DNA from: a virus
Virus record (IMG/VR): IMGVR_UViG_3300048065_000210
Span: 1 to 24,158 of that record
DNA length: 24,158 nucleotides
Strand: one strand, 5' to 3'
Shown: piece after piece, positions 4,764-14,343 of the stretch
How positions within the stretch are numbered: the stretch's first letter is position 1
Layout of the letters: each line of letters starts with the position of its first letter
The notes under the pieces: generated by a model
The model's database searches: none
Told to the model about the DNA's origin: nothing
Seen by the model: only the letters and a program-made list of their open reading frames with translations
Position numbers and translations under genes: made by a program

Positions 4764-7316
4764 TTAGTCTGATGATTTACAGAAAGATACTGCATGACGC
4801 ACAGCAACATCAACAGTTTGTAGAGCAACAATTCTTACTCCACCTGAAGTTGATAATGCATAAGGGTCAACAGTAATATCTAAACCACCGTACATACCAA
4901 TTAATAGGTCTGCAAAATTACCAAAGTAGAAATCACCACTTGTTACTTGATTACTTCTGATTACATTATAGCCGTTCATGCTATTGTCAGGAGAAACAAC
5001 AAACTGAGCAGTACCAGTAGCCTTTTCAGTTGTTTTTAAAGTACCAAAGTCAGCAGGTCTACAAATGTAACCTAAAGAACCATTTAAAGCATTGTCGTTA
5101 GCAACAGCACTTTCCATAGCTACGATCTCAGCCCATGTTGGGTTAGCAGCAGCGAAAGTTGTAGTGTTAATACCTGTAGTATTAGCAATACCTGTTGGCT
5201 GACCACTTGAACCTGAACCAGCTAATGCACCTAAATCAATAGCAGTAGCTATAGATTGTGTTAGGTCATCTCTAATTAAGTTCTCAACATCTAAGCTAGA
5301 TTGTTGTAGTAATAGTCTAGTAGCATCAGTAAAAGCACCGATTACTTTAGGAGACATAGTTACTGAACCTGAAGTAAATTCACTTTCAGAAGCAGCATTA
5401 CCTTCAGTTGCAATCCAACCAGCTGATGAAGCAGCAGTCTTCTTCGGAATAACAATATTCCCTTGAAGTCCTCTGAGCATTGTCGCTCCGGCTTGCATAA
5501 CACTTGAAGAGTTACGTAATACGTCGATAAAATCGCCCGCTCTGTAATCTTCAGCTACAAGAGTTGAATCATCAGATGTATTGATGTCTCTTTGTTTCCA
5601 GTTTCTTAATACCTCAGCAGGTAACATGATACCTTGAGCATCTTTACCATACTGTCTTGCAGCAGCAGCAGAACATTCGAATTCGAATTCTGCATCTTGC
5701 TGAGCTCTTCTGTCAGATGGATTAGCTAAAGCTCTAATTGCTTTTACTAAGCTAAACTGTCTAACTTCACTATTGTTCATACCAATCTCAGCAGTCTCTA
5801 GTGGTTTATCATTAGATATTTCATTTAATAATACACCTCTAAAATCTTCAACTGATATACCTTCTTGAATCGCCTTGTCAGCTAAATCTCTTTTGTTGTG
5901 TTTAACAGCTAAGTCTATAATTTCTTTTGAATTTCTTTTAAATTCAGCTTTAGCTTCTTCAACAGATTTTGATCTAACTTCATCAAGGTTGATTTCATTT
6001 TTAACTTCTTCAGTCATAATAATTTCCTTGTTTAAAGTTTTAGAACGGCCAACGCCAACGAGTCTGGATTGATCAGCTGGGACCGATACAGAAGAAACTT
6101 CCATAGGAGTCCAGTTAGCTTTATAATACGTTTCATCATTTTTGCCGTAACGTTCTAATTTGTTTATTTTATAGCCGACACTAATATTCATTCGAATACC
6201 GTCAACCACGTCTTGGAAAACCTCACGAGCTAAATCAGATCTTCCGAATCTGACCACAGCAACAGTCCTTTTTGCTGCCTCATCAAGTTTAAATTCTTCT
6301 ATCACACCAATTTGCTTAGTCATATCATGATCAAGCAAAAGCGGAGCTCGTCCAGATTCTATAAATGTCATGTCTATATCATCTGCACTGTGTCCTAGCA
6401 CTTCCATGCCAAAACTTCTTTCAACAGGTTCTTCAGAAGAAACACCAATCCTAACTCTTCTATTATCCTCATCAATATATTCTGATCTAGATAAATCAAT
6501 AGTTCTATACTTAATATGTAAATCAACTACATTTCTATCTTTTTCTTCATCATCATGATAAGGGCGAGCAGAATCATTTATTTCTACATCATCACCTTCC
6601 ACATCCTCATGTTTTGCGAATTCGACAATTACTTTATCATCAGTCTCGCTGACATTGAGGATATGTCTATCTTCTTTATTCATAGCTTTCTCCTCTTTAT
6701 TTTTAGATAAAGGATGTTTTTCCAACTCGTTAGAGTTGAAATCGTTAAAATCCCTAATGGGATTAATCTTTGTTAAGGTGCTAAATTTATGACCTACTTC
6801 AATTTCAGTAGATTCGCCACCTCTATAAACTTGTATTAATGCTGCAGGATCATCTTCTGTTCCTGTAATTGTTAATGAACTGTTTGGAATATTAATCTTT
6901 CCATCTCTTTCAATTTTTAATATTTTACCTCTTGCTCTTCCGCCAGAAGTATCCCAACTTACAAAGTCACCAACTTTTAATGCATCAGGTAAAGCTCTTT
7001 CTTGTTCTTTTTTCATTTTTTCCACCAATCTTGTTGACCAAGAATAACCTGCATCTCCGCCCCATAAAGCCCACGCTATTCTTCCGTTTGAAGGATAACC
7101 ATCTTCACCAGGGCTAAAACCTTCTGCTTTTTTATCTACCTCATGCCTACTGAAAAAGCTATACATTCTTTTTACAGTATCATCAGATAAATTTTCATTA
7201 GCTACAATTTGTCTTGCTCTTGTAGCACCTACTCTTGTTCCACCTCTTCCAAACTCTTCACGCCAATCTAAGCCTCTTTGTGCTTCAGTTTTCATTCCAT
7301 CATTAGGTTTAGGCAT
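4764..7316 (-). CDS. Fused prohead protease and HK97-fold major capsid protein with extra N-terminal domains
   Basis: An 850-residue open frame with no stop. I prefer ATG 7316 because AAGGTGG lies 8 nt upstream; GTG 7328 and ATG 7322 are alternatives. Residues 11-100 carry a module (GRGGTRVGATRARQI, RHEVD, PGEDGYPSNGRIAWALWGG) known from phage structural proteins. Residues 114-183 match the HVA-Tudor/DUF2945 type (KVGDFVSWDTSGGRARGK, EDDPAAL). Residues 260-420 form an S78/U35 prohead protease: LLLDHD with likely catalytic His330, NISVGY with likely Ser379, then VSVPAD. Residues 434-850 are an HK97-fold capsid protein with a charged helical delta domain (434-505) and the GWIATEGN...SPKVIGAFTD region. 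Strong ribosome sites precede residues 212 and 434. It overlaps the portal end by 8 nt. Confidence 0.9.
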   Translation of the reverse strand: MPKPNDGMKTEAQRGLDWREEFGRGGTRVGATRARQIVANENLSDDTVKRMYSFFSRHEVDKKAEGFSPGEDGYPSNGRIAWALWGGDAGYSWSTRLVEKMKKEQERALPDALKVGDFVSWDTSGGRARGKILKIERDGKINIPNSSLTITGTEDDPAALIQVYRGGESTEIEVGHKFSTLTKINPIRDFNDFNSNELEKHPLSKNKEEKAMNKEDRHILNVSETDDKVIVEFAKHEDVEGDDVEINDSARPYHDDEEKDRNVVDLHIKYRTIDLSRSEYIDEDNRRVRIGVSSEEPVERSFGMEVLGHSADDIDMTFIESGRAPLLLDHDMTKQIGVIEEFKLDEAAKRTVAVVRFGRSDLAREVFQDVVDGIRMNISVGYKINKLERYGKNDETYYKANWTPMEVSSVSVPADQSRLVGVGRSKTLNKEIIMTEEVKNEINLDEVRSKSVEEAKAEFKRNSKEIIDLAVKHNKRDLADKAIQEGISVEDFRGVLLNEISNDKPLETAEIGMNNSEVRQFSLVKAIRALANPSDRRAQQDAEFEFECSAAAARQYGKDAQGIMLPAEVLRNWKQRDINTSDDSTLVAEDYRAGDFIDVLRNSSSVMQAGATMLRGLQGNIVIPKKTAASSAGWIATEGNAASESEFTSGSVTMSPKVIGAFTDATRLLLQQSSLDVENLIRDDLTQSIATAIDLGALAGSGSSGQPTGIANTTGINTTTFAAANPTWAEIVAMESAVANDNALNGSLGYICRPADFGTLKTTEKATGTAQFVVSPDNSMNGYNVIRSNQVTSGDFYFGNFADLLIGMYGGLDITVDPYALSTSGGVRIVALQTVDVAVRHAVSFCKSSD
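6015..6029 (-). promoter_or_regulatory. Internal ribosome binding site and start at the capsid boundary
   Basis: AAGGAA (6029-6024) lies 6 nt before an in-frame ATG (6017-6015, Met434, MTEEVKNEIN). The start sits after the protease domain and at the beginning of the delta domain. The resulting protein would be 417 residues, the normal size of an HK97-type capsid subunit before maturation. Confidence 0.6.
6681..6694 (-). promoter_or_regulatory. Internal ribosome binding site and start at the protease boundary
   Basis: Inside the capsid-fusion frame AGGAG (6694-6690) lies 6 nt before an in-frame ATG (6683-6681, Met212, MNKEDRHILN). The start falls just after the Tudor-like domain and before the protease. 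It would produce a 639-residue protease-capsid protein lacking the N-terminal module. The site is as good as any true start in the window. Confidence 0.65.
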
Positions 7317-8817
7317 CGTCATCACCACCTTGTATATCAGGTTCTACTGGTAACTTAACACCAAAAGGTTGGAAAGCTGTTTTGATTCCATATTGTTCTG
7401 CAAGTTTTTGTTCTCTTTCGTGTTGTTCAAATAGTTCTTCAACATCTCTACCGTAATTAGCTTGTACATCTTGATAAGTTACTAAACCAGACTGCATACC
7501 ATTTATAGATGCATTCATCTCTTTTTGAGGATCAACCCACTGGAATGATCTACCAATAAATATTGTATTATCTGCAAACTTATCATACTTGCTCATTGGT
7601 AAAGGTATATTATTTGCAGGATTCATTACGATAGCTCCTGTTGATATAGACATTTCTAACCATTTTTCAAAAACAGGTCTCATAAAATGATCAATTACAA
7701 ACTTTTGATATACTTTATACATTTCTCTATCTTCAAGAGCTCCAGCTCTTAATGAACTGTAATTAACTGAGCTTAAGTCATTAGTTAATGCATGATAAGA
7801 AATATTTAAACCAGACGCTACACTTCTTAAAACACTAGTTGTAAATGAAGAAAATGCCGTGCTTGGGTGATCAGGATCAAATGATTTAAAATCCATACCA
7901 GCAGGAAGTTGCTCAAAAGAACCTGCTTGAGCTTCCATAATAGGAGTAAATGTATCTTCTAAATCATCACCTACATATCCATCACCATCTGGCGAAGTAA
8001 AGAACCCCATTTTAGAGGCAGATACACGTGCTGCTGTTATTTCTGCTTCTAAATAACCGTTAAGCATTTTTATGTTTGGCATAGCTGCAGCTGTAAAAGG
8101 AACACCTCTATTTTGTTCAGCTCTACTTGGTAAATAAGCATGAATAATTTCATTTGCAGGAACTCTTATATGTTCCTTAGGTGACATATAAGTATTATCA
8201 TAAGGATGGTTTTTAAATAACCAATAAGCAACAGGTTTATCGTTTTTGTCAACTTCAACGCCCATTTTAATTCTATTTTTTGTTTTAGGATTTACTTCAT
8301 TTTTTGTTTCATCTAAATGATCAGCTTCTAAAAACTGTAGTTTATATCCATATTTAGAATCTCTTGTTTGTACATGTCTTATTAAAACCTCACCATCTCT
8401 TGCTAAACATTCGACAAATAACTTTTGACAATCAATAAAAGATTGTCTACCATTTAAAGTACAGTTACCCATTTTTGACCATTTTATAAATTCAGTCTCT
8501 ATAACTCTATTACCTATAATATCTAATGATCCGTCTGTATTTCTTGCTTTAACACCTAATCTAATTCCATTAGAACCAATAATGTTTGAAACCATAAGAT
8601 TTAGATATCTAGCAACAAAAGAATCATTTCTTGCTAAATCTCTACTTCTTTCTCTTAGTATTCTTAGTTGATTTTTAATTTCAGCATCAGCTGAAGTACT
8701 TGAAGCTCTGAAGTCTTCAAATAGTCTACCTGTACTTGCTCCTGCGTATTTTCTATACATTGGCGCTTTACGTACTTTCTTATTACTTCTTCCTATTATT
8801 TTGTCATACCAAGCCAT
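7309..8817 (-). CDS. Portal protein (lambda gpB family)
   Basis: This 502-residue protein is of lambda-portal type. It opens with a basic N-terminus, then FVARYLNLMVSNIIGSNGI, a region with FLEADHLD (about 180), IIHAYLPSRAEQNRG (about 225-240), and YSSLRAGALEDREMYKVYQ (about 355-375), all usual for this family. It ends Asp-rich (GGDDDA). The dodecameric portal forms the DNA channel at the capsid vertex and docks terminase. It lies 2 nt after the gpW-like gene and just before the protease-capsid gene, matching lambda W-B-C-E. It appears intact. Confidence 0.93.
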   Translation of the reverse strand: MAWYDKIIGRSNKKVRKAPMYRKYAGASTGRLFEDFRASSTSADAEIKNQLRILRERSRDLARNDSFVARYLNLMVSNIIGSNGIRLGVKARNTDGSLDIIGNRVIETEFIKWSKMGNCTLNGRQSFIDCQKLFVECLARDGEVLIRHVQTRDSKYGYKLQFLEADHLDETKNEVNPKTKNRIKMGVEVDKNDKPVAYWLFKNHPYDNTYMSPKEHIRVPANEIIHAYLPSRAEQNRGVPFTAAAMPNIKMLNGYLEAEITAARVSASKMGFFTSPDGDGYVGDDLEDTFTPIMEAQAGSFEQLPAGMDFKSFDPDHPSTAFSSFTTSVLRSVASGLNISYHALTNDLSSVNYSSLRAGALEDREMYKVYQKFVIDHFMRPVFEKWLEMSISTGAIVMNPANNIPLPMSKYDKFADNTIFIGRSFQWVDPQKEMNASINGMQSGLVTYQDVQANYGRDVEELFEQHEREQKLAEQYGIKTAFQPFGVKLPVEPDIQGGDDDA

Positions 8818-8819
8818 AT

Positions 8820-9401
8820 TTAAAACCTAATTTTGATTGTATTACCGGAATCTTTATTATTTTTGATTCTTGCTTTTTTAACTTCTTTTAAATATTCAGC
8901 TTTATATCTATCTCTAAACTGCAATAATTCATCTATAGTTAATCTTGACAATGATCTGCCAGCAATACTCATTGAACTTTGATCCATTGTCGCTCTATTT
9001 TCTATAACAGCCTCAATAGCATCAAGCACTTTTTTTGCATGTGATCTAACAGAAGTTGTGACTGTTGCGTAATTTTCTTGAATTTCTGTAAAACCTTCAG
9101 ATAGCTTAATTCTTGCAGAATCAGAAGATCTTGTTATATACGCAATCCAGTTATATTCACCAGCCGCGTATGATGTAGTATTACTAACTTCAATAATATA
9201 TTCATCATTAGATTCTGTAGCAGTTAATGAAAAATTAGATGCAGTTGAACCATCAACTAAATTGAATTCATAAGATAAAGCATAAGATGCAGTTGGGTAG
9301 TCGGTGGATAAGTCTGTTCTCTTCCACGCCCAAAAATCTCCTAACTGCAACTCATTAGGTTCTGTGTCTAGATAGTTAGTACTATCGAATTTATTGGCCA
9401 T
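8820..9401 (-). CDS. gpW-like head-tail connector with N-terminal beta domain
   Basis: This 193-residue protein has two parts. Residues about 10-110 are beta-rich (FWAWKRTDLSTDYPTASYAL, YEFNLVDGS, AGEYNWIAYITRS) and look Ig-like. Residues 118-193 are helical and charged (HAKKVLDAIEAVIENRATMD, GRSLSRLTIDELLQFRDRY) and resemble gpW-type joining proteins. The gene stands between terminase and portal, where lambda has W. Lambda W is only 68 residues, so the N-terminal domain is an addition. The start has no Shine-Dalgarno and is preceded by an A/T hairpin. The gpW relation is by position and general pattern. Confidence 0.6.
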   Translation of the reverse strand: MANKFDSTNYLDTEPNELQLGDFWAWKRTDLSTDYPTASYALSYEFNLVDGSTASNFSLTATESNDEYIIEVSNTTSYAAGEYNWIAYITRSSDSARIKLSEGFTEIQENYATVTTSVRSHAKKVLDAIEAVIENRATMDQSSMSIAGRSLSRLTIDELLQFRDRYKAEYLKEVKKARIKNNKDSGNTIKIRF

Positions 9402-9437: not shown

Positions 9438-9478
9438 ATATCATGAAATACCTTGATTTGTAATTATTTTCAGAAAGA

Positions 9479-10210
9479 TTATTTTACCTTTAAAACCCAT
9501 AAACAGTTTCTACTTTCAGCTGGAAACATAGGAGCCATTAAATTACTTAGTATATTTGTATCAAAATATTCACTTACAGTTTCAAAATATTGCTTTTGCC
9601 AATCATTCATTAAAGGTTTATAATCTCTAATTGATGCAAATGTTCCATATTTATTTTCAATAGTAAAATATCTTTCTAATATATCTTGTAATTCAAAATG
9701 ATCAAACTCACATATCTCACCATTAATAATATGATTAGAAGCAGCTCCTACTTGTTCATCATAATTAGGTGTTGATAATAAAATGGTTGTATCTTCATTA
9801 GCGAACTTACACATATTTTCTAGAAATATATCTGCATTCTTTTTACCAATATGTTCTATTACTTCAAAACTACAAATTAAATCATAAGTTTCACCTGTAG
9901 GTTCTATGTTTGAACATAAATCTAATTGTTCAAATGATGCCCATTCAACATTTTCATATTTTTCATTAGCATCATTCATTGTTTTTTCTCTTACATCAAC
10001 ACCTAAATACTTTTCGCATTTAAATCTATTTCTGTAAAATACTTCTAAACAGCTACCTGTTCCACAGCCCCAATCTAAAACTTTCATTCCTATCTTTGCA
10101 CGTTTTAAAACATGAGTCCACCTAAGATAATGTGCAAATTGATCGCGATGATAAATATGTCGCTCCATTGCAGTATCTGGGTTTAATTGTGTTGTGTTAT
10201 ATTTTTTCAT
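9479..10210 (-). CDS. Class I SAM-dependent methyltransferase
   Basis: ATG 10210 is chosen because AAGGAG lies 6 nt upstream, giving 243 residues (a 12-residue longer form exists). Motif I is VLDWGCGTGS (44-53), the acidic SAM-ribose residue is in LGVDV (Asp72), and motif IV-like CSFEVIEH lies at 113-120. These define the UbiE/Ubi-G-like Rossmann methyltransferase fold. It lacks the DPPY/NPPY signature of DNA amino-methyltransferases and the PC motif of cytosine-C5 enzymes, so DNA methylation is not indicated; a small molecule, nucleotide or protein substrate is more likely. It is the last gene of the nucleotide cluster and overlaps dCMP deaminase by 14 nt. Confidence 0.8.
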   Translation of the reverse strand: MKKYNTTQLNPDTAMERHIYHRDQFAHYLRWTHVLKRAKIGMKVLDWGCGTGSCLEVFYRNRFKCEKYLGVDVREKTMNDANEKYENVEWASFEQLDLCSNIEPTGETYDLICSFEVIEHIGKKNADIFLENMCKFANEDTTILLSTPNYDEQVGAASNHIINGEICEFDHFELQDILERYFTIENKYGTFASIRDYKPLMNDWQKQYFETVSEYFDTNILSNLMAPMFPAESRNCLWVLKVK

Positions 10211-10646
10211 AGTATACTCCTTGTTGTGAAAAAATCTGATCAGCAAGATTACAACTATCTTGCCAACGTTGATTTGATTTATCTGATATTTGAGCGATCA
10301 CCGCTTTTACTCCTACTTGACACAAACCTTTTGCGCATTCATGACAAGCATGTAAACCATAAATAAAGATTGTAGAACCTTCTAACGATACACCATTTAA
10401 TGTTGCATGATAAATACAATTCATTTCTGCATGTATCGTGTATTTGTATTTTTGTTCTCTATCTTCATATAAAGCTAGTTTATCTGGAAACTTTCTTGGG
10501 AAACCATTGTAACCTTGAGATAATACTTGACCCTCATTACCAATAGCGACAGCTCCAACTTGTGTAGAAGGATCTTTACTCCAAGTAGATATTTCTTTTG
10601 CAAGATTTAAATATCTATTTTTCCAAATGTTTGAAATGTTTTTCAT
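10197..10646 (-). CDS. Deoxycytidylate (dCMP) deaminase
   Basis: I use ATG 10646 (MKNISNIWKNRYLNLAKEI, 149 residues) since the family begins with this W..R/Y..LA helix; a longer start at 10691 adds 15 unrelated residues. The zinc site is visible: TIHAEMN (His72, Glu74) and HACHECAKG (Cys101, Cys104). The usual Pro before the first Cys is Ala here. RKFPDKLALYEDREQKYKY is the typical dCMP-deaminase insertion. The enzyme turns dCMP into dUMP, the substrate of thymidylate synthase. It overlaps the TS-like gene by 32 nt, suggesting coordinated pyrimidine supply. Confidence 0.88.
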   Translation of the reverse strand: MKNISNIWKNRYLNLAKEISTWSKDPSTQVGAVAIGNEGQVLSQGYNGFPRKFPDKLALYEDREQKYKYTIHAEMNCIYHATLNGVSLEGSTIFIYGLHACHECAKGLCQVGVKAVIAQISDKSNQRWQDSCNLADQIFSQQGVYYEKI

Positions 10647-11271
10647 AAATATGTAAGTTTTGTACTTGCCAATGAATAACTCCTGAATCATAACCTAAGT
10701 CGTTGCTTAACTTATCTAGAATATATTTATGCCAAGCATAATCGTTTTTATAACCATAAACAGCATCATTAGACCTCATCTGCACCACACAATCAACCTT
10801 CTGAGATAAGGAGTTAATGTAAAAGCTAACCGCGTTAGTGCAGATAAAATCGTTCTTGCCGTTATCTTGATATTCTTCCCATATACTAGGTCTTGTATAA
10901 ACCATAGTTGCTCTCCTTGAATTACTGTTACGTTGTAATTCCTCTTTAGCATTTACATATTGGCTATAGTATATTGGGGAATATATCAATCTTCCGTAAT
11001 TTGAATTGATTTCTCCATTATTATCTGCTGTATATTTCCATGCAGCAGGAGTTGGATCATAATCTATATCATGTATATTAGTTGATCCTAATTTGTACCA
11101 GTTTATTTCTGCATCAATATAATCTTGGTTGACTTCACCAAATATAGTGGGTTCATCTGCTATAAAGCTAGCTCCTAATATTTGTATTGTTTTACAACCT
11201 GTTTTATCAGTAATAAATTGCTCTTTGTCATACATTGTTTGCAATGTATTGCGAATATCTGATACATTCAT
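10615..11271 (-). CDS. Thymidylate-synthase-family enzyme, probable dCMP hydroxymethylase type
   Basis: This 218-residue protein carries the TS landmarks: EINWYKLGSTN (Glu55, Trp58), AAWKYTADNNG (Trp78), SRRATM (Arg119-Arg120 phosphate site), FICTNAVSF (nucleophile Cys144), MRSNDAVYGYKNDYAW and LHIYEKH (His207, Tyr209). Aligning R-S-x-D-(3)-G-x-x-x-N with R-S-N-D-A-V-Y-G-Y-K-N-D puts Asp177 where TS has the dUMP-selecting Asn177. Asp at this place is the known mark of T4 gp42 dCMP hydroxymethylase. It is shorter than E. coli ThyA (264). Substrate and product are inferred. It overlaps the DUF1599-like gene as ATGA, and dCMP deaminase by 32 nt. Confidence 0.82.
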   Translation of the reverse strand: MNVSDIRNTLQTMYDKEQFITDKTGCKTIQILGASFIADEPTIFGEVNQDYIDAEINWYKLGSTNIHDIDYDPTPAAWKYTADNNGEINSNYGRLIYSPIYYSQYVNAKEELQRNSNSRRATMVYTRPSIWEEYQDNGKNDFICTNAVSFYINSLSQKVDCVVQMRSNDAVYGYKNDYAWHKYILDKLSNDLGYDSGVIHWQVQNLHIYEKHFKHLEK

Positions 11272-11534
11272 TTTTTCTTTTTTTCTTTTAAATATGCACC
11301 ATAAAAACTTGCATAGTTAATTAAATCTAAAACTGAATCGTAAGCAGATTCAAAATTAGCTGTTTTACTTTCAAAAGCTAAAGATTCTAATCGTTTAACT
11401 TTAGTATGTATCATAGTTAAATAAGATGCATCATTGTATGGAAAGTATTCTTTCTTTGATTCTGAACCTTTTGATTTATAATCTTCGCCTTTTAATTCTT
11501 GTAAAGCTGCTGCTTCACTTAATACTGAATGCAT
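11268..11534 (-). CDS. DUF1599 / nucleotide-modification-associated domain protein
   Basis: This is an 88-residue helical protein. The C-terminal half, SYLTMIHTKVKRLESLAFES, followed by DSVLDLINYASFYGAYL, resembles the DUF1599 (Nmad1) family, in which a basic helix with K-x-x-R-L is followed by a D-x-L-x-D-L-x-N-Y motif. Such proteins often sit beside phage nucleotide and DNA-modification enzymes, but their biochemistry is unproven. AAGGAG at 8 nt supports the ATG at 11534. Its position between a MazG-like enzyme and the TS-like enzyme suggests a nucleotide role. Confidence 0.65.
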   Translation of the reverse strand: MHSVLSEAAALQELKGEDYKSKGSESKKEYFPYNDASYLTMIHTKVKRLESLAFESKTANFESAYDSVLDLINYASFYGAYLKEKKKK

Positions 11535-11537
11535 AAT

Positions 11538-11939
11538 TTACTCCTTATCTAAAAAATTTAATTTACCAATATTATCATAATGCTGTGGTGATTGCCAACC
11601 GTCTGGTTTTACAAGATCAGGTAATCCTAATGGATTTGGTCTTGTATCTTTTATACCAATCTCTTTTTGCATATTTGCATGATGTACACGTTTCCATGCT
11701 TTTTTAATATCTACATCAAATGCATCTAATGAACCTAATGCAATTACAATAATATCTATGAAAGCATCTACTACTTCATCTGGTTCTTCGTATTTAATAG
11801 CTTGAAATAATTCATTAAGTTCTTCTTGTACAAATTTTGCTCTAAATTCAAGATAATGTAATTTTTCATTATCTGATGCTTTACTAATAAACTTATTAAT
11901 TTGATATAGTTTATTAAGTTTTTTAATATCACCTATCAT
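11538..11939 (-). CDS. MazG-like nucleoside triphosphate pyrophosphohydrolase
   Basis: This 133-residue all-alpha protein has the metal site of the MazG/PRA-PH group: FVQEELNEL (Glu39, Glu40, Glu43), then EVVDAFIDIIVIALG (Glu55, Asp58, Asp62). The tail with NMQKEIGIKDTRPN and LVKPDGWQSP is a common phage variant that contacts the substrate. Enzymes of this fold cleave NTP or dNTP to the monophosphate and pyrophosphate, so a dCTP- or ppGpp-directed role is possible. It lies upstream of the TS-like and dCMP-deaminase genes, so making dCMP/dUMP from host dNTPs is a reasonable inference. Its start overlaps the previous gene as ATGA. Confidence 0.8.
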   Translation of the reverse strand: MIGDIKKLNKLYQINKFISKASDNEKLHYLEFRAKFVQEELNELFQAIKYEEPDEVVDAFIDIIVIALGSLDAFDVDIKKAWKRVHHANMQKEIGIKDTRPNPLGLPDLVKPDGWQSPQHYDNIGKLNFLDKE

Positions 11940-12525: not shown

Positions 12526-14343
12526 TTATTTCCAACTATTAATCCAACCAGTTTGTCTTGGTCTTCTTTTATTAACATCTTTACCATGTTCTTTTTGTGT
12601 TGATTTGTTTTGTTTAATTAGTGCTTCAATACGATCATAGTTAGGTTGCAATATATAAACTGCTGCGAATGCATAAACTAAAGTATCTAATGCTTCATTG
12701 TTTCTTGTTTTCTTAACCCATTGAAACTTTTTAGCTCCTTTAACATATTTAACAACTCTTTTTTCTGATGTTAATTGTTTAAAGTATTCTTCATCTACTG
12801 TAGCAGGAAAATGTATTGTCGCATTTTCTGCTTTTATTCTTGAGTAAATAACTTCTTTAGCTGTATCTGTTCCTACAGGATATAAAACATGTCTTGATCT
12901 TCCAACAAATGATGGTCTTCCTGCTATTGGTTTTTGTGTTTGTGAAGAACCTTTTATTGCAAAAATCTTACGATGTATTCTTTTTGACGTATAAGCATAC
13001 ACTTGCTGAGTATGATGACCACCTGAGTCGATACATGTTGAAACTATTTTTAAAACTTTATCATCTTCTCTTGTAAATGAATTAAGTAAATACTGATCTA
13101 AGTCTCTCCATACATGTGTAGAAGAAGGATCACCAAATATAACTTTGTAATCTATAATCCAACATTCATTGTTGTGGGACCAACCTACAACTTGAGCTTC
13201 TAAACGATCACCCTGTACGTCAACACCACAAGTTAACAACAGTACTTCATTTGGTACAGTCTCATGATCATAAGTTTCACGTTTATCTAATAAGCCACCA
13301 TATTCAATACTTTCACCAGGATCATCAAATGTTCTACCTAAAGCAGTATTTACCCAAGTCTTAAGCATTTCAGGTTGGTTTTTAACAGAGTAAAAATCTA
13401 CAGCCATATCTACCCAAGTTCTCCAAGGGCTGTAAAGCTCAGAAATATGAAAGCCTGCTACTTTTTTTGTTTCATTCTCTGCAATCCATTGTCCGTTTTG
13501 TAACATCCACATCTTTTTAGATTCAGGTATTACTGTTTCACAATGTTTGCATGTATATTCTGCAGTTTCTGGTTTAGATTTTTCCCAATGTATTTGTTCC
13601 CATTCTAAAACTTGCAATGTAGCACAATGAGGGCAAGGTACATGATAATAACGCTTGTCTGATTCTTCAAAAGCTACTTCTATACGTGATAAACCTTTAA
13701 TTGTAGGAGTAGATGTGATAAATACTTTTCTATTCCAAAAAGTAGTTGTACGTTTTACAGCTAGATTAATAGGATCACCTTCTGCTCCTGCTGATGTTTC
13801 ATATCTATCAACCTCATCGCATAAAAGTATACGTATTGGTCTAGAAGCTAGTCCTGCAGGTGAATTTGAACCTACAATGTTAATATTTCCGCCAGGAAAC
13901 TTTTTAGAAAGAACAGTATTACCGGAATCTCTACTTTTAGGGTCTTTTACTTTAGTTCTTAACCTTTCTGAATCACGAATCATATTCGCTAATCTATCTT
14001 TTGACCATGCTTGAGCCATAGCTAATGTTGGTTGCAATACTAATGTTGGAGATGGATCTTGATCAATAAAGTAACCTACTATGTTATTCAGTATCTCAGT
14101 AGCTCCAACTTGAGCAGATTTCATAAAAACTATAGTATTTATTCTATGATCGTTAGCAGCATCCATGATTTCTTTCTGATATGGTGCTCTATCTGTCTTC
14201 CATTGGCCTGCTTCTGATGAAGATTCAGCCGATAATACCCTATATTGATCAGACCATTCAGAAACAGTTAAATCAGGTGGTGGATTCCATATCTTTTTTG
14301 TTGACGAGAGTACTTTCTCTATATTCTTGCGGTATTGGGTCAT
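12526..14343 (-). CDS. Terminase large subunit (GpA family)
   Basis: This 605-residue DNA-packaging motor and nuclease has a Walker A of the GpA type (KSAQVGATE, 75-83), Walker B (ILLCDEVDR, 172-180), coupling motif TSTPT (210-214), a zinc-binding pair CPHC/CKHC (237-240, 265-268), and nuclease acids Asp375 (GVDVQGDR), Asp439 (IDSGGHH) and Asp553 (EALDTLVYA). Domain order and length match lambda gpA (641). It starts 71 nt inside the small-subunit gene. That start must be kept, since the conserved WNPPPDLTVSEWSDQYR comes only 20 residues later. GpA terminases usually cut at cos sites. Confidence 0.95.
   Translation of the reverse strand: MTQYRKNIEKVLSSTKKIWNPPPDLTVSEWSDQYRVLSAESSSEAGQWKTDRAPYQKEIMDAANDHRINTIVFMKSAQVGATEILNNIVGYFIDQDPSPTLVLQPTLAMAQAWSKDRLANMIRDSERLRTKVKDPKSRDSGNTVLSKKFPGGNINIVGSNSPAGLASRPIRILLCDEVDRYETSAGAEGDPINLAVKRTTTFWNRKVFITSTPTIKGLSRIEVAFEESDKRYYHVPCPHCATLQVLEWEQIHWEKSKPETAEYTCKHCETVIPESKKMWMLQNGQWIAENETKKVAGFHISELYSPWRTWVDMAVDFYSVKNQPEMLKTWVNTALGRTFDDPGESIEYGGLLDKRETYDHETVPNEVLLLTCGVDVQGDRLEAQVVGWSHNNECWIIDYKVIFGDPSSTHVWRDLDQYLLNSFTREDDKVLKIVSTCIDSGGHHTQQVYAYTSKRIHRKIFAIKGSSQTQKPIAGRPSFVGRSRHVLYPVGTDTAKEVIYSRIKAENATIHFPATVDEEYFKQLTSEKRVVKYVKGAKKFQWVKKTRNNEALDTLVYAFAAVYILQPNYDRIEALIKQNKSTQKEHGKDVNKRRPRQTGWINSWK

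Follow-up and report, generated by a model that had tools for sequence, protein, structure and literature searches.

The window analysed here, the whole 24,158 bases of an IMG/VR virus record (G+C 32.5%) from a small marine bacterial virus, encodes a thymidylate synthase (TS)-family protein with an aspartate where TS carries Asn177. An earlier note on this DNA took that residue as a sign that the phage makes 5-hydroxymethyl-dCMP (5-hm-dCMP), or methylates dCMP, and may carry modified cytosine in its DNA. The locus raises the question of which nucleotide the enzyme acts on, which group it adds, and what the genes around it would do with the product.

The gene lies on the minus strand; the same interval read on the plus strand is full of stops. 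The protein matches PF00303 with 54.7 bits (cut-off 24.3), and a phmmer search of the PDB returned T4 gp42 (1b49) at E=4e-62, followed at about 1e-6 to 1e-4 by MilA, a CMP hydroxymethylase, and by thymidylate synthases, with E. coli TS at about 1e-4. These two scores, together with at least 595 relatives in IMG/VR, rule out a family match by chance. The nearest characterised relative is RB14/T4 gp42 (about 50% identity over 215 aligned residues), and the best matches among 50,697 phage records are Tequatrovirus gp42 proteins (about 49%). A maximum-likelihood tree built from 58 TS-family proteins places the query inside the gp42 clade with support of 100/100, apart from ThyA, SPO1 gp29 and the AXL3-type enzymes. 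We considered a longer protein made by reading through the TAG at 10615 and rejected it, because the continuation is short, contains more stops and is unlike the gp42 C-terminus, and because most members of the marine subfamily terminate near the same point as the 218-residue query.

Table 1. Genes of the putative cytosine-modification module and its flanks, in window positions.
Feature	Position	Strand	Details
orf193, 3' flank of slot	8820..9401	-	directly after terminase, with no module, in Roseobacter phages CRP-811/406
Class I SAM methyltransferase, candidate hydroxymethylcytosine-tailoring enzyme	9479..10210	-	243 aa; Methyltransf_23
dCMP deaminase	10197..10646	-	149 aa; PF00383 3.9e-17, phrog_174
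gp42-type dCMP hydroxymethylase (P0001), predicted	10615..11271	-	218 aa; ATG at 11271, TAG at 10615
DUF1599/Nmad1-like small protein	11268..11534	-	88 aa; phrog_18404 2e-15
MazG/PRA-PH-like NTP pyrophosphohydrolase, candidate dCTPase	11538..11939	-	133 aa; PF01503 4.3e-11, phrog_671
Terminase large subunit, 5' flank of slot	12526..14343	-	~50% identical in Roseobacter phages CRP-811/821

The neighbours named in the earlier note were recovered (Table 1). The deaminase, MazG-like and methyltransferase genes match their Pfam families; the DUF1599-like ORF falls below the PF07659 threshold (17.8 bits, cut-off 25; 0.0044), yet it matches a phrog family. Among 80 IMG/VR loci that contain relatives of the query, 71 have this ORF, 75 a deaminase and 54 a MazG-like gene. 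The genes overlap in an operon-like manner, the deaminase ATG at 10646 giving a 32-nt overlap with the 3' end of the hydroxymethylase gene. Elsewhere in the window, a holin-like protein (GTA_holin_3TM, PF11351; 22861-23232) adjoins a phage lysozyme (22416-22976), and one 854-aa ORF (4764-7328) lies at the major capsid position; its CRP-811 counterpart is annotated as major capsid protein, and the N-terminal part of the window's ORF looks different from a capsid protein and is possibly a fused protease region. Searches for tRNAs and Rfam RNAs in the window returned none.

We aligned the protein with E. coli ThyA, T4-type gp42 and SPO1 gp29 in MAFFT. Each residue previously listed as a TS landmark is present in the query's own numbering (E55, W78, R119/R120, C144, R166, S167, D169, H207 and Y209), along with D177. 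This aspartate stands opposite Asn177 of E. coli TS, as had been claimed, so no asparagine occupies the position, and T145 stands opposite His147. Asp177 shows no variation across the gp42-type clade and is also present in 52/52 homologues encoded beside the cassette described below. This invariance and the query's place inside the T4 gp42 clade uphold dCMP as the substrate.

A study of the gp42 ternary complex named two features as the signature of hydroxymethylation (PMC6400193). One is an Asp at position -3 from the catalytic Cys (Asp145 in T4), which activates water and without which the D145N mutant yields no 5hm-dCMP; the other is a Ser that precedes a Tyr by two residues (Ser94/Tyr96) and assists. 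The query carries this signature as D141-F-I-C144 and S90-N-Y92, and its C144, E55 and R119/R120 correspond to the catalytic Cys, Glu60 and phosphate-binding Arg123/124 of T4. At the ThyA positions Asn177, His147, Leu143 and Trp83 the query reads D, T, D and T. It also lacks the C-terminal tail of ThyA, ending at HFKHLEK and so falling short even of gp42. Trp83, Leu143 and the tail, which serve TS in hydride transfer and closure, are thereby absent. The THF gate columns of gp42 (Ile81, Val85 and Phe174) contain A77, T81 and Y172 in the query; PMC6400193 describes the gp42 residues at these columns as relatively conserved only, and as non-discriminating. Because the signature is present and the hydride-transfer and closure landmarks are missing, we predict that the product is very likely 5-hm-dCMP. 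Of the two reactions offered by the earlier note, hydroxymethylation fits the D141/S90/Y92 signature and the loss of Trp83, Leu143 and the tail, and is favoured over methylation on sequence grounds.

Residues 143 and 177 (E. coli numbering) are D/D in T4, D/N in SPO1 and M6, L/N in ThyA, and N/D in DLP4, our 5mC-type comparison sequence. The known products are hm-dCMP for T4, hm-dUMP for SPO1 and M6, and dTMP for ThyA, and DLP4 is closely related to Xp12, a 5mC phage (PMC7653180, PMC9206674). The query has D/D, as T4 does. Its D177 departs from the dUMP hydroxymethylase pattern (Asn177 with Asp143, as in SPO1 gp29 and M6 ORF058), and its D143 from the dCMP methylase pattern (Asp177 without Asp143; Leu in the sister locus L267, Asn in DLP4). 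Taken alone, the enzyme adds one more member to the known gp42 family and extends it to small marine phages.

We compared 80 loci anchored on the terminase gene, over the region from terminase to orf193 or the portal, and found four main states of this slot. The first is empty: 21 loci that reach the portal genes have no gp42- or ThyA-like gene and show gaps of mostly ~70-800 bases, and two isolates, Roseobacter phages CRP-811 and CRP-406, also have an empty slot. One of the 21, L300, was excluded from the tailoring-gene comparison; it does have MazG, DUF1599-like and deaminase genes, and with them, in the same slot, an unusual TS-family protein (L300:3046-3795) with Arg at 143 and no Glu58. 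The second state, found in the window and nine other loci, comprises MazG, DUF1599-like protein, gp42-type enzyme, deaminase and methyltransferase. The third (14 loci) has a gp42-type enzyme and deaminase followed by a cassette of three to four genes. The fourth (24 loci) has MazG, DUF1599-like protein, a ThyA-like enzyme of ~264 aa and deaminase, with nothing further in the loci inspected. The ThyA-like enzyme combines Asp177 and Phe147 with Leu143 and a C-terminal tail, and keeps Trp83 except in L289, which has Phe; from these features it is predicted to be a dCMP methylase yielding 5mC (L267:8818-9612 and 23 similar loci). Among complete slots, those reaching the portal genes, a tailoring gene (methyltransferase or cassette) accompanies 11/11 hydroxymethylase-type and 0/21 methylase-type enzymes, counts that come from related phages and are not independent trials.

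DNA alignments resolve these differences to single genes. Between the window and L329, a fourth-state locus, homology is unbroken from 11939 to 11272 and returns at 10614, so that exactly the hydroxymethylase gene is exchanged; a second exchanged stretch runs from the deaminase to 9440 and covers the methyltransferase. Between the window and L097, a third-state locus, homology extends from 11276 to 10184 and returns at 9438, with exactly the methyltransferase exchanged. In L097 the DUF1599-like gene is also exchanged, for a dATP/dGTP diphosphohydrolase-like gene, and the deaminase allele differs (67-69% versus 87-100% identity to the window's deaminase). The cassette phages have, in place of the DUF1599-like gene, a protein with a dATP/dGTP diphosphohydrolase N-terminal domain (PF18909; L008:2984-3289).

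The cassette encodes proteins of ~320 aa (phrog_13881), 295 aa, 290 aa (PLP fold, PALP, phrog_7093) and 378 aa (no family), and has at least 281 relatives. It is visible in 52 of 80 loci, all with an Asp177 hydroxymethylase, and most of the others end too early. For the 378-aa protein (D_378), searches of Pfam, NCBIfam and annotated phages were negative, and nothing in the PDB matched significantly. Examples of the cassette lie at L014:4610-8454 and in L096-L175, and it also occurs in T4-like marine phages. We regard these four genes as a candidate cytosine hypermodification pathway.

The methyltransferase next to the hydroxymethylase, METHYLTRANSFERASE, has at least 451 relatives by profile search. 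Among the best 80 of these matches, drawn from a metagenome collection and not independent lineages, 76 loci have a detectable TS-family gene, and all 76 hold the D143/D177 type (74 directly, two through a second TS adjoining the methyltransferase); in the remaining four the contig or fetched stretch stops near the methyltransferase. The two apparent Asn177 exceptions were dismissed, since a second Asp143/Asp177 TS lies beside the methyltransferase, and a 'Q' at residue 177 in five loci was an artefact of SPO1-type tblastn alignments, the full MAFFT alignment giving D. The TS partners belong to several lineages, and the tree needs at least five changes of the 'MTase partner' label (the rows H_L012 and H_L023 lack the label, though the methyltransferase is present). 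Methyltransferase and cassette were found together in 0/80 and 0/80 loci (160 loci in all). A distant homologue occurs in five phage records (ct3Et533, ctUtU524, PW916 and two AXL3 entries), all of which hold methyltransferase, MazG, D143/D177 TS and dCMP deaminase in one module; a thymidylate kinase is annotated in the modules of AXL3 and ct3Et533.

The nearest named families of the methyltransferase are UbiG and Hen1, both O-methyltransferases, and its nearest solved sequences are Hen1 RNA 2'-O-methyltransferases. It had no match among the DNA-methylase Pfam families (N6, N4 and C5), only to generic class I SAM families. In an AF2 model (pLDDT 90.2) the fold is of the generic class I SAM type. 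A Foldseek search returned ~1,300 matches, with TM ~0.6 to many small-molecule methyltransferases and no substrate singled out; a first model, built from five close sequences (pLDDT 54.7), had been discarded. Overall, the enzyme probably acts in the hydroxymethylcytosine (hmC) pathway. We propose only tentatively that it is an O-methyltransferase of the hydroxymethyl group. Just as tentatively, it may be a dedicated partner of phage dCMP hydroxymethylases. In that case it would methylate hmC, at the nucleotide stage or within DNA, to give for example 5-methoxymethylcytosine, and would represent one of two or more tailoring options that exclude each other, the PLP-enzyme cassette being the other. 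In the literature searched, which misses most subscription journals, the hydroxymethylase/methyltransferase pairing and the four-state slot look unreported. Our searches likewise found no report of 5-methoxymethylcytosine as a phage base and no paper linking 'pelagiphage' with 'hydroxymethylase'.

It is rather unlikely, in our judgement, that the methyltransferase has nothing to do with the hydroxymethylated base and only happens to lie next door, as an RNA or cap-like methyltransferase might. Its generic fold and Hen1 resemblance would suit such a role, as would the annotation of some homologues as 'capping protein' or tRNA methyltransferase. However, the 76/76 linkage to D143/D177 TS genes spans several TS lineages, near-identical phages carry the other cassette in its exact place, and methylase-type slots have no methyltransferase.

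In our preferred reading, the hydroxymethylase forms the centre of a small cytosine-replacement module that can be exchanged between phages and includes the MazG-like, DUF1599-like, deaminase and tailoring proteins. The MazG-like enzyme and its DUF1599-like partner would convert dCTP to dCMP, and the hydroxymethylase is predicted to move a hydroxymethyl group from methylene-tetrahydrofolate onto C5 of dCMP, yielding 5-hm-dCMP, while the deaminase would divert excess dCMP to dUMP and dTTP. No gene of the PolA, thymidylate kinase or cytidylate kinase families was found in the window or in the 32,453-base relative G001, and host kinases and polymerase would make and incorporate 5-hm-dCTP. The adjacent SAM methyltransferase would alter the hydroxymethylated base or nucleotide, as its linkage suggests, with the hydroxymethyl oxygen as the favoured guess, and the virion DNA would resist restriction. 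To this overall reading, a gp42-type hydroxymethylase, replacement of cytosine by 5-hydroxymethylcytosine, and tailoring by the methyltransferase, possibly by O-methylation, we give a probability of about 0.82. Against it stand the altered gate residues (Ile81 to Ala77, Val85 to Thr81), the loss of the final ~20 residues of gp42, the failure to recognise a nucleotide kinase, the generic fold of the methyltransferase and the shared ancestry behind the linkage counts. The virion DNA of this phage, known as a contig alone, likely contains hmC or a derivative, also because the same domain set marks MetaGPA contigs and because AXL3, with a homologous methyltransferase, has resistant DNA.

It is improbable that the module only remodels nucleotide pools, removing host dCTP and supplying dTMP, with the hydroxymethylated base not kept in the virion. 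The failure to recognise a phage kinase or polymerase in the 32.5-kb relative fits such a role, but it would make dedicated tailoring genes pointless; moreover, cytosine-modified contigs carry the same gene set (PMC8670742) and AXL3 DNA is restriction-resistant (PMC7504290). We give still less credence to a dCMP methylase, of the TS N177D or Xp12 type, in a phage that carries 5-methylcytosine. Asp177 alone makes a TS a dCMP methylase, according to literature cited in PMC8670742, and the ThyA-like enzyme that sister phages encode in this slot combines Asp177 with Leu143, a TS-type tail and, nearly always, Trp83. The query, however, with D at the Cys-3 position, S at Tyr-2 and T instead of Trp83, has no such tail, clusters with gp42 and not with ThyA, and is accompanied by tailoring genes that methylase-type slots lack. 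Least probable of all is an enzyme acting on dUMP (ordinary or hydroxymethyl dUMP) with Asp177 as tolerated drift: PF00303 membership and a dCMP deaminase next door that would provide dUMP are consistent with it, but Asp177 is invariant in the gp42-type clade and in all 52 cassette-side homologues, Asn177 is kept in the SPO1 and M6 hm-dUMP enzymes, and Asp177 is associated with modified cytosine in MetaGPA (PMC8670742).

For the hydroxymethylase module, the slot comparison outweighs the enzyme alone. Phages that are otherwise nearly identical exchange whole genes cleanly, so that restriction escape through DNA chemistry becomes testable in one genomic background. Across the slot, residues 143 and 177 would predict unmodified cytosine, 5mC, hmC with methyltransferase, or hmC with the second cassette. 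The methyltransferase, a widespread uncharacterised family (at least 451 relatives), and the four-gene cassette (at least 281) are candidate makers of new cytosine hypermodifications.

Among the closest known systems is T4. The query matches T4 gp42 (PDB entries 1b49, 6a9a and 6l18) at D177 (T4 D179), D141 (D145), S90/Y92 (S94/Y96), C144 (C148), E55 (E60) and R119/R120 (R123/R124), and neither protein has the TS C-terminal tail. It differs from the 246-residue gp42 in lacking the last ~20 residues, in its gate residues (I81 to A77, V85 to T81, F174 to Y172) and in the folate-tail residue (Arg177 to Lys175). Unlike T4, the phage is ~32 kb, with a GpA-type terminase, a lambda-like portal and a methyltransferase at the tailoring position. 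T4 needs its gp1 kinase, whereas no glucosyltransferase or gp1 kinase was recognised in this phage.

Phages of the Xp12/DLP4 type, in which all cytosines of Xp12 are 5mC (PMC7653180, PMC9206674), share dCMP deaminase, an Asp177 TS and, in DLP4, MazG and DUF1599-like parts fused in one protein. They differ in residue 143 (Asn in DLP4) and in an adjoining dihydrofolate reductase, and no methyltransferase or other tailoring cassette was found in them. In MetaGPA, an Asp177 TS, a dCMP deaminase (PF00383/PF14437) and PRA-PH (PF01503) mark experimentally cytosine-modified contigs (PMC8670742). Those modules, with carbamoyltransferase, share the window's core domains and its Asp177, along with a changed residue 147; the window's tailoring gene is instead a SAM methyltransferase, a class on which the main text of PMC8670742 is silent. 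Pelagibacter phage HTVC200P, for which an isolate exists, encodes a TS with Asp143/Asp177 beside a kinase-like ORF (L410:3974-4792) and is likely another hmC-type phage.

Stenotrophomonas phage AXL3 shares a homologous methyltransferase (28%), a D143/D177 TS, MazG and dCMP deaminase with the window, although its TS lies outside the gp42 type (19% identical to the query) and the phage also encodes a thymidylate kinase and a DNA polymerase I. Of 37 restriction enzymes tried on AXL3 virion DNA, 35 failed to cut; the two that did have sites made up of A and T alone (PMC7504290). The AXL3 protein gp28 (L179:10301-11110), annotated as thymidylate synthase, carries Asp143/Asp177 and by these residues is probably a dCMP hydroxymethylase, which would account for the restriction-resistant DNA of that phage.
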